From Gemmatimonadota bacterium (lineage in GTDB: Bacteria > Gemmatimonadota > Gemmatimonadetes > Gemmatimonadales > Gemmatimonadaceae), in the NCBI GenBank assembly GCA_003134685.1, contig PLCA01000013.1, positions 106,373-170,372 on the forward strand: a DNA stretch of 64,000 nucleotides, read 5' to 3'. Numbering within the stretch: the stretch's first letter is position 1; the number at the start of each line of letters is the position of its first letter. A model generated the notes under the pieces. The model was given only the letters and a program-made list of their open reading frames with translations. It did no database searches and had not been told where the DNA came from. Shown one piece after another: positions 31,027-46,444 of the stretch. Position numbers and translations under genes: made by a program.

Positions 31027-31068
31027 GGAAAGAGTGTCTCGGTCCGCGGGTCGTTCGTTTTCTTCAAC

Positions 31069-31247
31069 AGAACGGGATCCGAGATCTGAGAAGCGTAGAT
31101 CTCAGTTGTTGGTCACTACGCGGAGACGTAACCGGTGCGGCTCGGGGTACAAGCAATGGCAAATTTGCAGGTGATCCATTGAGCAGGGTCGGAGCGTGGT
31201 GACTTAGTTCTGTCATCTGTGCCCTCTGAGATCTCGGATCCCGTTCT
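31069..31247. repeat. Hairpin repeat element between pilT and accC
   Basis: AGAACGGGATCCGAGATCTGAG (31069-31090) is matched by its near-perfect inverse CTGAGATCTCGGATCCCGTTCT (31226-31247). Inside, CAGTTGTTGGTCACTACG (31103-31120) partly pairs with CGTGGTGACTTAGTTCTG (31195-31212). A third arm-like stretch TGAGATCTCGAATCCCATTC follows at 31258. The core GCGTAGATCTCAGTTGTTGGTCACTACGC resembles the core of the S23 element's ends. No reading frame of interest lies inside. Confidence 0.75.
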
Positions 31248-31320
31248 CTTCAGCAGTTGAGATCTCGAATCCCATTCTTTTCAGTAGTCAGTTTCCGGAA
31301 ACAACGCTTAATGAGCATCA

Positions 31321-41977: not shown

Positions 41978-41989
41978 AGCTGCATCTTT

Positions 41990-42452
41990 GTCGGTGCGTC
42001 GGAGGGGATCCTCTTCGGCTCCAGGCTCTCGCTCGTGGCGGCACCAACCTTTGGTGCGGGTGCCTGTTGTGTCGCGCTTTGTGGAGTCGTACCGATCTCT
42101 CTGTCGCTCGTGGGTTGTCGCCTACGAGGACCCCCTCCGACTCCCCTTCGAGTGCATCGCTCGGTTAAGCACTCGACCTCGCGCCTCCTTCAGTCAGAGA
42201 TCGTTGCGCGGGAGCGCGCCGAGCGAAGCTCGGCGGGTCCGTGAGAGAGTCAGCGGGCGCGCGGATCGCCCCTGAACGCGCGCGCTGTTGCGACACTGTG
42301 CAGGGAGGTGAGGGTGTGCTCGGAGGGAGCGGCCGGAGCCAGCGCCGCTGCCAGGCGGCGCGGTTCAGCGAGCCGCAAGGCGAAGCTGAAGGCGAGAGCT
42401 CCCGCAGAGGACACCCTCACCGACCACATACAGAGATGCCAGTCGAAACGCG
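41990..42452. repeat. Long structured repeat, copy A
   Basis: This copy closely matches 43178-43632 in the same direction. Module 1 (41998-42141) has arms GTCGGAGGGGATCCTC / GAGGACCCCCTCCGAC. A middle hairpin CGCCGAGCgaaGCTCGGCG lies near 42217. Module 2 (42308-42420) has an outer stem GTGAGGGTGT...ACACCCTCAC and GGGAGC/GCTCCC, enclosing GCGCCGC[TGCCAG]GCGGCGC and a second hairpin TTCAGC..GCCgcaaGGC..GCTGAA. The track ORFs here (41988-42275 and 42241-42465) are not convincing as genes. Confidence 0.85.
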
Positions 42453-42456
42453 GGCT

Positions 42457-43029
42457 CTAGGCTAACTCGCCGTGCGCGCGGGCGAACAACTCCGCGAGAT
42501 CGATTGTGAGCGGGGGATGCTCGGTCTGCGGTTGCCACTCGATAATCTCCGACAGCGTTTCTGCTCGCGTATCGGCGGGACGCCACCGGTCGATCACCCG
42601 CGCGTCAGAGTCGACGATCCAATATTCGCCCACCTGGAATCGCTGATACAGCAGGCGCTTTCGGTGCCGATCCGCGCGCGCGGTTGACGGAGACAGGATC
42701 TCGACCGCGAGCAGCAGAGATTTGATGTCTTTCCAGGATGTTGACTTCTGAACAAGATCGTGCGGGACGACGAAGATATCGGGCTCGACCACGTTTCGCG
42801 GATCGACTATCACGTCCCCCGGCGCAAAGAAGCCGTAGCCCACTGGGTACCGGGCCAGGTAGTTGGCTATCAGTCGGCCCAGCTCCCACTGCACGCGCTG
42901 GTGCCCGAACGCGGGCGGCGGAGTCACGAACAATTCGCCGTCGATGATCTCGTAGCGGTTCCCGTCTTCGGGAAGCGACTCGAGCATATCGTAGGTCCAT
43001 TCCTTCGTCGTCGCGGCGGCCATTCCCAT
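42457..43029 (-). CDS. Uma2-family (DUF820) restriction-endonuclease-like protein
   Basis: The 190-residue protein has the Uma2 pattern: YDMLESLPEDGNRYEIIDGELFVTPPPAFGHQRVQWEL, VVEPDIFVVPHD, LLAVEILSPSTARADRHRKRLLYQRFQVGEYWIVD. The PDxxx...ExL core is like PD-(D/E)XK nucleases; most family members have unknown roles. GAGGAG precedes the ATG by 8 bases. It is on the opposite strand to recX and alaS and lies between two copies of a long repeat, so it was probably brought in with them. Confidence 0.88.
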   Translation of the reverse strand: MGMAAATTKEWTYDMLESLPEDGNRYEIIDGELFVTPPPAFGHQRVQWELGRLIANYLARYPVGYGFFAPGDVIVDPRNVVEPDIFVVPHDLVQKSTSWKDIKSLLLAVEILSPSTARADRHRKRLLYQRFQVGEYWIVDSDARVIDRWRPADTRAETLSEIIEWQPQTEHPPLTIDLAELFARAHGELA

Positions 43030-43177
43030 ACTCTAAACTCCTCGGCGAAAGGCGAGCAAGAGCGCATTTCGGCACCATAGCTTTCCACGGGCGTGCGAGC
43101 GTCACCGTCACGCTCCCGCAGGCAGCGAACTCGCGCACGCCGTCGTCTCGCGTCTGAGCTAGCCGGCCCCTCGTTTC
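43030..43177. other. Spacer between the Uma2 gene and repeat copy B
   Basis: This 148-base spacer must hold the Uma2 promoter. The end of it, CGTCGTCTCGCG at about 43141, also occurs in the last codons of recX just before copy A (41958), so the repeated unit may begin slightly earlier than copy A's non-coding part. No gene is seen. Confidence 0.4.
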
Positions 43178-43632
43178 CGGTACGTCGGAGGGGGTCCTCT
43201 TCGGCTCCAGGCTCTCGCTCGTGGCGGCACCGACCTGTCGTGCGTGGCCGTGTTGTATTGCGCTTTGCGGGGGCGTACCGATCTCTCTGTCGCTCGTGGG
43301 TTGTCGCCTACGAGGACCCCCTCCGCCTTCCCATGGGATACTCGGCGTTGCCATGCGTTCGCCGCCGCGCCTCGCTCGTCTGAGATCGTCGCGCGGCAGC
43401 GCGCCGAGCGAAGCTCGGCCTATCCGTGAGAGAGACACGGGCGCGAATGGCCTTCGACGCGCGCGCTGTTGCGACACTGTGCAGGGAGGTGAGGGTGTCC
43501 TCGGAGGGAGCGGCCGCAGCCAGCGCCGCCGCCAGGCGGCGCGGTTCAGCGAGCCGCAAGGCGACGCTGAAGGCGAGAGCTCCCGCAGAGGATACCCTCG
43601 CCGACCACATACAGAGATGCAAGCCGGAGCGC
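43178..43632. repeat. Long structured repeat, copy B
   Basis: This is a second copy of 41990-42452. Module 1 is 43184-43327, module 2 is 43489-43601, and the middle hairpin GCCGAGCgaaGCTCGGC and the loop GCCgcaaGGC are kept. Differences from copy A are concentrated between the modules and in loops. It ends 28 bases before the alaS start, so it lies in the alaS leader region. Confidence 0.85.
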
Positions 43633-43660
43633 GACAAAAGGAGCGCGTATATTTACGAGC

Positions 43661-46444
43661 ATGACGGCCGCCGAAATCCGCAAGAAATTCACCGAGTACT
43701 TTGAACGCAACGGGCATGTCGTCCATGCGAGTTCGCCAGTAGTGCCGGGCGACGATCCGACGCTCATGTTCACGAACGCGGGGATGGTGCAGTTCAAGAA
43801 GGTGTTCCTGGGCCAGGAACAGCCGCCCGGTGGCTCGCGTCGCGCCACGACCGTGCAGAAGTGCGTGCGGGCCGGCGGGAAGCACAACGACCTCGAGCAG
43901 GTAGGCCACACCGCGCGGCATCACACGTTTTTCGAGATGCTCGGGAATTTTTCCTTCGGCGACTACTTCAAGAAGGATGCAATCCGCTTCGCCTGGGAGT
44001 TCGTGACGAAAGAGCTGAAGCTCGATCCGAAGCACATCCGCGTCACTGTTTACGAGGAGGATGACGAGGCGCGCGCTCTCTGGCGCGAGATCGCTGGACT
44101 TTCGGACTCCCGCATTTACGGACTCGGCGCGCACGACAACTTCTGGCAGATGGCGGACACCGGTCCCTGCGGTCCATGCACCGAGATCTTCGTCGACTTG
44201 GCTCACGTCGCAAAGGATTTTGCGTTTCCAGCGGGCGCCAAGGGCGAGTGGACCGAGATCAAGCGGAAGGAATTCTCAAAGGATGCGTTCGTCGAGGGAG
44301 CAGAGGCGGGCAGGTTCCTCGAGTTCTGGAACCTCGTCTTCATGCAGTTCGATCGGCAGCCCGATGGAACGCTGGTGCCACTCCCCAAGCCGTCGGTTGA
44401 TACCGGGGCCGGCCTCGAGCGCATCGCCGCGATCATGCAGGGGGAATCGAACAATTTCCACGCCGATCTTTTTCAGTCGCTCATCAAGGCGGTCGAGAAG
44501 GCGATCAAGCAGAAGTACGATCGTGGGGAAGGCGGCGCATCATTCCGCGTCATAGCGGATCATAGCCGCGCGGTGGCATTTCTCCTCGGCGACGGAGTGT
44601 TTCCTTCGAACGAGGGGCGGGGCTACGTCCTGCGCAGAATCCTCCGTCGTGGTGTGCGCCACGCGTGGCTGCTCGGTCGCCGGCAGCCGACGCTGGTGGA
44701 AGTCGTGCGCGTTGTCATCGACCAGATGGGCGATGTCTATCCCGAGCTGCGCAATCGCTCGCAACACATCATTGACACCACACGCGCGGAAGAGGAGCGC
44801 TTCCTCTCGACGATCGAAGGCGGGATGCGCCGCTTCGACGAGCTCGCACCGACGAAAACCACGCAGGGATCGACCGCAATCCACGGGACGATCGCCGGCG
44901 AAGATGCATTCAAGCTTTATGACACCTTCGGATTCCCAATCGACCTCACCGAGTTGATGGCCCGCGAGCGCGGGTACTCGGTAGACATCGCGGGATTCGA
45001 AGCGGCGCTACAGGGACAGCGAACGCAATCCCAGGAAGAGCGACGCTCAAAGAAAGTCGGTGTGGAAGCCGATGCGTTGGGTGCGAGCTGGATCGTCGGG
45101 ACGAGCGCATCGCAGTCGACCGCGGAGGGTGGGTCGACCGCGGCGCGGAGCGCGGGTCAGGGAACCATCAGCGATATGTTGTCGGGCGAGACTCGGTTCA
45201 CCGGCTACGATTCCCTCGACGTCACGACCGAAGTCGTCGCCAAACACGATCTGCCCGATGGACGCGCCGCCGTAATACTTCGTGAGACGCCGTTCTATGT
45301 CGAGTCCGGCGGACAGATCTCCGACCGCGGCGAGATCAAGGGCGATGGCTGGAGCGTTGACGTCGACGAAGTCCGCAAAGTCGATGGACGCATCACCGCA
45401 CTCGGAAAAACCACCGGCAAGGTGCAACTCGGAAAGGCGAGAGCGACGGTGCCGCGCGATCGTCGTCGCGACACCGAGCGCAATCACACCGCCACCCACC
45501 TCCTCCACGCCGCCCTCAGGCAAGTCCTCGGCGAGCACGTTCAGCAGCACGGCTCACTCGTCGCGCCGGATAGACTGCGATTTGATTTCTCGCACCACGG
45601 CCCGCTGAGTCAGCAGCAGCTGGCTGATGTCGAGAGCATCGTCAATCGTGGAATTCTCGACGGCGTTCAGCTCACGTTCGAGGAGAAACCCAAGGCCGAA
45701 GCGTTTGCAAGCGGCGCGATGCACCTCTTCAACGAGAAGTACGGCGATGTCGTGCGAGTCGTCAGTATCCCCGGGCTGAGCATCGAGCTTTGTGGTGGCA
45801 CGCACGTCCGCAACACGGCTGAAATCGCCCTCTTCAAGATTGTGAGCGAGACAGGCAGCTCGGCGGGAGTCCGGCGCATCGAAGCGGTGACGGGCCGCGC
45901 CGCGCTCAATCTCTTCCGCGAGCACGAGCGCGAGCTGAAGGAAATCGAATCGCTGGTGCGCGCGCCCGCTGGCCAGGTGGTGAAGCGCGTGCATGCTCTG
46001 GTCGAGGATCGTCGTGCACTCGAGAAGCGGCTCGACGAAGCGATCCGGACCGGTGGCGGTGGCAGCGCGATCAAATCGCTCGTCGAACAGGGCTCGGTCG
46101 TCAATGGCGTGAGAGTCGTGGCGGCGAATGTGACCGCGGCGGACCTGCCCGCGCTTCAGGCGATGGGTGACGCGCTGCGTGAGCAGATGGAATCGGGCGT
46201 TGGGGTTCTCGCGGCATCGTTCGACAACGGCAAGAATACAATGCTCGCAGTGGTGAGCGATGATCTGCGCGACCGTGGGGTCCGCGCCGACATCATTCTT
46301 CGCGAGCTGGCCGCGTCCGCGGGCGGGAAGGGAGGCGGTAAGCCGCACATGGCGCAGGCGGGAATTCCCGACGCGGCGCGCATGGCGACGGCGGTCGCGG
46401 ACGCGCCGGAGATGATCCGGAAGCACCTCGCCGCGACCGCGTGA
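43661..46444 (+). CDS. alaS: Alanyl-tRNA synthetase
   Basis: AlaRS charges tRNA(Ala). The catalytic domain begins TAAEIRKKFTEYFERNGHVVHASSPVVPGDDPTLMFTNAGMVQFK. The editing domain has the metal-binding HTATHLLHAAL and CGGTHVRNTAEI motifs, and a C-terminal oligomerisation domain follows (SAGGKGGGKPHMAQAG). At 927 residues it is slightly longer than usual (about 875), through extra sequence around residues 460-500 (TSASQSTAEGGSTAARSAGQG). A small ORF overlaps its stop. Confidence 0.97.
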   Translation: MTAAEIRKKFTEYFERNGHVVHASSPVVPGDDPTLMFTNAGMVQFKKVFLGQEQPPGGSRRATTVQKCVRAGGKHNDLEQVGHTARHHTFFEMLGNFSFGDYFKKDAIRFAWEFVTKELKLDPKHIRVTVYEEDDEARALWREIAGLSDSRIYGLGAHDNFWQMADTGPCGPCTEIFVDLAHVAKDFAFPAGAKGEWTEIKRKEFSKDAFVEGAEAGRFLEFWNLVFMQFDRQPDGTLVPLPKPSVDTGAGLERIAAIMQGESNNFHADLFQSLIKAVEKAIKQKYDRGEGGASFRVIADHSRAVAFLLGDGVFPSNEGRGYVLRRILRRGVRHAWLLGRRQPTLVEVVRVVIDQMGDVYPELRNRSQHIIDTTRAEEERFLSTIEGGMRRFDELAPTKTTQGSTAIHGTIAGEDAFKLYDTFGFPIDLTELMARERGYSVDIAGFEAALQGQRTQSQEERRSKKVGVEADALGASWIVGTSASQSTAEGGSTAARSAGQGTISDMLSGETRFTGYDSLDVTTEVVAKHDLPDGRAAVILRETPFYVESGGQISDRGEIKGDGWSVDVDEVRKVDGRITALGKTTGKVQLGKARATVPRDRRRDTERNHTATHLLHAALRQVLGEHVQQHGSLVAPDRLRFDFSHHGPLSQQQLADVESIVNRGILDGVQLTFEEKPKAEAFASGAMHLFNEKYGDVVRVVSIPGLSIELCGGTHVRNTAEIALFKIVSETGSSAGVRRIEAVTGRAALNLFREHERELKEIESLVRAPAGQVVKRVHALVEDRRALEKRLDEAIRTGGGGSAIKSLVEQGSVVNGVRVVAANVTAADLPALQAMGDALREQMESGVGVLAASFDNGKNTMLAVVSDDLRDRGVRADIILRELAASAGGKGGGKPHMAQAGIPDAARMATAVADAPEMIRKHLAATA

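Follow-up and report, generated by a model that had tools for sequence, protein, structure and literature searches.

What is the repeated sequence that flanks a Uma2-family gene between recX and alaS in this Gemmatimonadaceae genome, and is the structured module within it an RNA in its own right or part of a larger element? In the window, that is, the whole 64,000-nucleotide stretch of contig PLCA01000013.1 that was analysed, the first-pass annotation had placed two copies of a module, at 42308-42420 and 43489-43601, and had described it as a structured RNA with a three-way junction and a GNRA loop. Both copies are present at these positions, with 94% identity across 177 nt. The module lies inside direct repeats that reach from 41985 to 42452 and from 43171 to 43633 (pieces 41985-42187, 42193-42252 and 42276-42452), and the repeat unit is a two-armed element of ~470 bp, much larger than the module, which forms its right arm. 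The two elements, A and B, and their parts are the following.

41982-42452, no strand: element A, two-armed intergenic repeat between recX and the Uma2 gene, from repeat extent and architecture
41993-42147, minus (the inner-to-outer strand being the minus strand): element A left arm, core type a, from the inverted repeat and the arm list
41998-42013 / 42126-42141, minus: frame stem of the element A left arm, with core type a at 42014-42125
42148-42299, no strand: element A linker, GC-rich, with small hairpins GCGCGGGAGCGCGC and GCCGAGCGAAGCTCGGC, from the direct repeat
42300-42428, plus: element A right arm, core type b three-way junction, from the fold and a covariance model match of 134 bits
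42307-42321, plus: 5' half of the element A right-arm frame stem, pairing with 42407-42421
42325-42330, plus: GGGAGC helix (helix 2), pairing with 42398-42403, 2 of 6 pairs changed on both sides
42342-42361, plus: GCGCCGC...GCGGCGC hairpin (helix 4), mostly invariant, with one double change
42365-42389, plus: UCAGC-GA-GCC-GCAA-GGC-GAA-GCUGA hairpin with GCAA loop (helices 5 and 6), 4 of 8 pairs changed on both sides
42422-42452, plus: element A outer end GACCACATACAGAGATGCCAGTCGAAACGCG, common to the ends of other elements
42457-43029, minus: Uma2-family gene between elements A and B (Pfam PF05685, E 3.6e-28)
43168-43633, no strand: element B, between the Uma2 gene and alaS, from repeat extent and architecture
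43179-43333, minus: element B left arm, core type a, from the inverted repeat and the arm list
43481-43609, plus: element B right arm, core type b, second copy of the module, covariance model match of 133 bits

At another site the linker is conserved with the related genome G002. A TATATT box lies ~7 bases 5' of the alaS start codon (window 43640-43663), just downstream of the end of element B, and is kept in related genomes, which suggests that the alaS mRNA is leaderless.

The type b arm and its fold

Folding of 42300-42430 with RNAfold returns the three-way junction that had been described, with the outer stem, the GGGAGC/GCUCCC helix and the GCGCCGC and UCAGC-GA-GCC-GCAA-GGC hairpins, at -83.6 kcal/mol compared with -54.7 +/- 3.7 for shuffled sequences (z -7.9, 0 of 200 as good). 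The fold is also supported by covariation. In an alignment of 14 b-type arms from four genomes (the home genome, G014, G002 and G009), 98.6% of the cells pair and 9 of 35 pairs are changed on both sides, the shuffled mean being 2.8 and the controls with slid partners giving 0-2. Among the compensatory changes are UCAGC/GCUGA to GCAGC/GCUGC or GUAGC/GCUAC, GCC/GGC to GGC/GCC with the same GCAA loop retained, and GCGCCGC/GCGGCGC to GCGCGGC/GCCGCGC, and type b also has invariant stretches. The GNRA loop holds for most copies, which carry GCAA, and for one copy each with GAAA and GCGA; in two copies the loop is GCCA, which is not a GNRA sequence. The annotators' view that the module belongs to no named RNA family agrees with the Rfam search of the window, in which nothing matched at gathering scores and the sub-threshold matches, only to a plant miRNA model, were at chance level; no tRNA or known RNA was found. 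Type a cores measure 111-114 nt and cores undergo replacement, so that the left half does not keep its 95-aa frame; a coding explanation was rejected on these grounds, and the sequence gives no sign of translation.

Other parts of the first description have to be revised, since the junction is one of at least six core types held in the same frame, and the two copies in the window belong to a repeat that occurs genome-wide. In searches of the home genome the module had 13 copies and the left half 19 matches, and the pattern matches group into about 19 elements. Nor is the module spread over the Gemmatimonadota: among 118 genomes of the family the b model matches the home genus only. A DNA search of 99 genomes likewise gave clear multi-copy matches within the home genus only, with marginal single matches elsewhere. 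In GTDB, a 22-base pattern from the core recurs in the Gemmatimonadota MAGs palsa_1244, Chersky.7_28, AG15 and UBA4718, and its matches outside Gemmatimonadota are single and reach at most 23 bits with the b model. An IMG/VR contig carrying the 22-mer was discarded, its match to the b model being at chance level, and a plasmid or phage origin was set aside, no plasmid or phage match having been found.

A constant frame with exchangeable cores

Most elements consist of an arm, a GC-rich linker of roughly 100-260 bp and the same arm inverted. From the outer end GGTCGG, each arm runs through a stem, GTCCTC, the core, GAGGAC and the returning stem to the inner end CCTTCCC, its inner foot being GGGAGG or GGGAAG. 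In the arm set (47 candidates extracted, 46 used) the arms measure about 125-170 nt, the frame stems have at least 15 pairs, and the cores, about 80-130 nt in length, are of types a, b (the reported module), c and at least three more, all in fixed orientation relative to the frame. The element ends are alike within subtypes, yet an element's left and right stems are often unlike each other, and stems pair with their own partner with a score of 10.2 of 12, against 7.8 for the partners of other arms. This points to selection acting on each hairpin and not only on terminal inverted repeats, which were rejected as the whole story because the two stems often differ and each pairs within itself. Judged from the sequences compared, the conserved feature is the frame with its strand-specific stem, not the particular three-way junction.

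Further palindromic sequences were noted in the same genomes. A small hairpin, GGGTGCCCGC...GCGGGCAGG, is inserted at differing points inside arms in several genomes (L037 844-998, L240, L136, L245, L246), resembling a palindrome nested in a palindrome. One 743-kb contig of the home genome was scanned in stretches for new hairpins, and a second palindromic repeat family of about 185-200 bp is present at window positions 31066-31250 and at loci L188-L225 of contig C5, where about ten copies lie on a single contig; its ends read AACTGAACGGGATCCGAGATCT / AGATCTCGGATCCCGTTCAGTT, and it too has several interior types.

Along the inner-to-outer strand, wobble-type stem pairs are G.T in 33 cases and A.C in 9 (67 distinct frames, p 2.7e-4, a value that is optimistic because the copies are related). 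The loop at the junction of frame and core is GNA/GNA in 31 of 46 arms and GA/GA in 11 of 46, and further G.A loops are seen at the foot and within cores b and c, where the other strand would have pyrimidine mismatches. Consensus energies for the inner-to-outer and the other strand are -126 and -116 for b, -131 and -114 for c, and -80 and -78 for a. It thus looks as if only the inner-to-outer strand of each arm is selected; since the arms are inverted, one good hairpin lies near the 3' end of either strand of the element, a pattern that would be expected of a bidirectional RNA element and that a role in single-stranded DNA would produce equally.

According to gene orientations from a simple gene call, convergent genes flank 10 of 18 elements, compared with a background of 18% on one contig (p 3.6e-4). 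Co-directional genes flank 6 of the 18 and divergent genes 2, so that 16 of 18 elements lie at convergent or co-directional gene ends, and the distance from an element end to a stop codon is often no more than some tens of bases. At one site (C1_346, L043) two convergent genes have an element of ~450 bp between them, whereas in G002 (L171) their stop codons lie at a distance of 2 bp. At another (C5_414) the upstream stop codon is overlapped by an inverted repeat that, with its T run, resembles a terminator, and little transcript may reach the element there.

The flanks of 12 sites were compared in nine related genomes, and many sites are common to several genomes in differing states. Between recX and alaS, where the window has element A, the Uma2 gene and element B, three genomes (G015, G018 and G003) have clean empty sites and two (G011 and G017) have one element with other cores. 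These last two are also without the Uma2 gene between recX and alaS; the gene at 42457-43029 may have arrived together with the second element. Clean empty sites were likewise found at C1_346 in G002, G017 and G011, and several genomes have lost elements at given sites. At C5_436, G009 and G010 have one arm, with the left outer stem half on one side and the right outer half on the other; G014 has only a scar in which these two halves are joined. No clear target-site duplication was definable on comparing filled and empty sites. Elsewhere the cores alone have changed: at C5_427, G000 and G002 share the linker, with near-identical frames and flanks, and both cores are changed from a to c, and at C3_187 the right core is changed from a to c in an unchanged frame. 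Within one genome the cores tend to be alike (at two sites both arms in G011 have a type peculiar to that genome), and this suggests that copies exchange cores. The simplest mechanism would be gene conversion across the shared frame halves, moving cores from one copy to another; the direct stem repeat (GTGAGGGTGTCCTC on both arms) would presumably also allow single-arm deletions by slippage.

Possible roles of the element

The reading that we tentatively favour, at slightly less than even confidence, is that the element is a genus-specific, imperfectly palindromic repeat, a large modular analogue of the REP/BIME elements that works as RNA at the 3' ends of genes. Whichever flanking gene it came from, a transcript would have one stable, correctly oriented hairpin at its end, and this hairpin might protect the mRNA 3' end or limit read-through into the opposing gene; the core sequence would matter little provided that the core folds, and cores would move between copies by gene conversion, with the frame halves on both sides as homology. 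The fold and its covariation, the pairing of stems with their own partners, the G.T bias, the junction loops, the convergent position and the exchange of cores in a kept frame are in line with this proposal, and the terminator-like repeat at C5_414, the 6 co-directional and 2 divergent elements, the nearly equal strand energies of type a and the losses of elements speak against it.

Its main rival, a selfish non-autonomous mobile element of the MITE or REPIN kind, is a serious possibility, held at about one-third weight. A putative transposase or nuclease would read the hairpins as single-stranded DNA ends, and the position at gene 3' ends would reflect tolerated insertions. Dispersed copies, sites that are filled in some genomes and cleanly empty in others (recX-alaS and C1_346), and an inverted two-arm layout as in REPINs are what such an element would show, and the selected strand has its 3' end at the outer end of the arm, where a DNA recombinase could read it too. 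GAA and GNA loops are stable in DNA as well. However, a target-site duplication was not definable, and the search for a partner transposase, which covered the Y1_Tnp domain of RAYT proteins (PF01797), gave none in the home genome and a weak match in one of nine other carriers (G016); mobilisation of the RAYT/REPIN type was rejected on this absence from nearly all carriers. Most sites are, moreover, common to several species, so that recent transposition is not evident, and transposition of whole elements does not explain core swaps inside a fixed frame.

A further proposal concerns the core swaps themselves, namely that at the 3' ends of genes a strand-specific hairpin frame stays fixed and takes up folded core cassettes unrelated to one another, which would be swapped in situ not by ordinary gene conversion but by a dedicated process with the frame (GTCCTC/GAGGAC with its G.A loops) as recognition site; this would make the family a new kind of structured repeat, and we regard it as unlikely. 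Lower still in probability is a DNA-level role, in which the arms, lying between convergent genes where supercoils gather, would be extruded as cruciforms or be bound by a chromosomal protein such as gyrase or a nucleoid protein: the arms are palindromic, their position is often convergent and E. coli REPs bind gyrase (PMC3733652), but a symmetric cruciform predicts neither the G.T strand bias nor purine-purine loops on one strand. Least probable, and very doubtful despite the covarying junction, the mostly GNRA loop and the invariant stretches of type b, is the original idea of a discrete small RNA made from the b module as a trans-acting or cis regulator, since the frame accommodates at least six cores, of which b is one, other cores stand at orthologous sites, and neither a fixed neighbouring gene nor an Rfam match was found.

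Relation to known repeat systems

What REP-like repeats are for is an old question. REPs prefer convergent and co-directional gene ends and have G.T pairs in their stems, both of which have been taken as signs of transcription (PMC3733652). The present family resembles the REP, BIME and REPIN repeats, whether GTAG- or CGTC-tagged, as dispersed, lineage-specific intergenic palindromes, usually in inverted pairs, with a preference for gene ends and G.T pairs in the stems (PMC3733652, PMC3116915). It differs in its arms, which are about 125-170 nt long with branched, exchangeable cores where REPs have 20-40 nt, in the lack of a RAYT in nearly all carriers and in its copy number (about 19, compared with hundreds). 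Of the features of GTAG-type REPs and REPINs, the inverted hairpin doublets and the preference for convergent or co-directional gene ends were found; the short palindrome of 20-40 nt with a GTAG-like foot was not, the feet being GGGAGG or GGGAAG, and the home genome has no RAYT. Because the short tagged palindrome and the RAYT were looked for and not found, the family was not filed as a REPIN. The CGTC-tagged REPs, with a CGTC tag, a stem of 8-9 bp and a loop of 4-5 nt, do not correspond either to stems of at least 15 pairs with large cores.

The BOX elements of Streptococcus pneumoniae are composed of three subunit types with a repeated middle, in contrast to a constant frame around alternative cores. 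Like the present family, they are modular intergenic repeats that form stem-loops (PMC3049150). The repeats bcr1-bcr18 of the Bacillus cereus group are also group-specific, some being MITE-like and some having conserved RNA secondary structure and lying in UTRs, and in the description used for the comparison there is no inverted two-arm frame with swapped cores (PMC3446304). Rfam families resemble the element as structured non-coding sequence and differ in that none matched at gathering scores. In literature searches a two-armed repeat family with swappable cores was not found described.

Taken as a family independent of the REPs, with far larger branched arms, nearly without RAYT, and with strand-specific pairing that can be read from the sequence, these elements bear on the same question from another side. 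The same sites, with the same frame and different cores in related genomes, amount to a natural experiment in which the selected features (frame, strand and position) can be told apart from the free one (the core).
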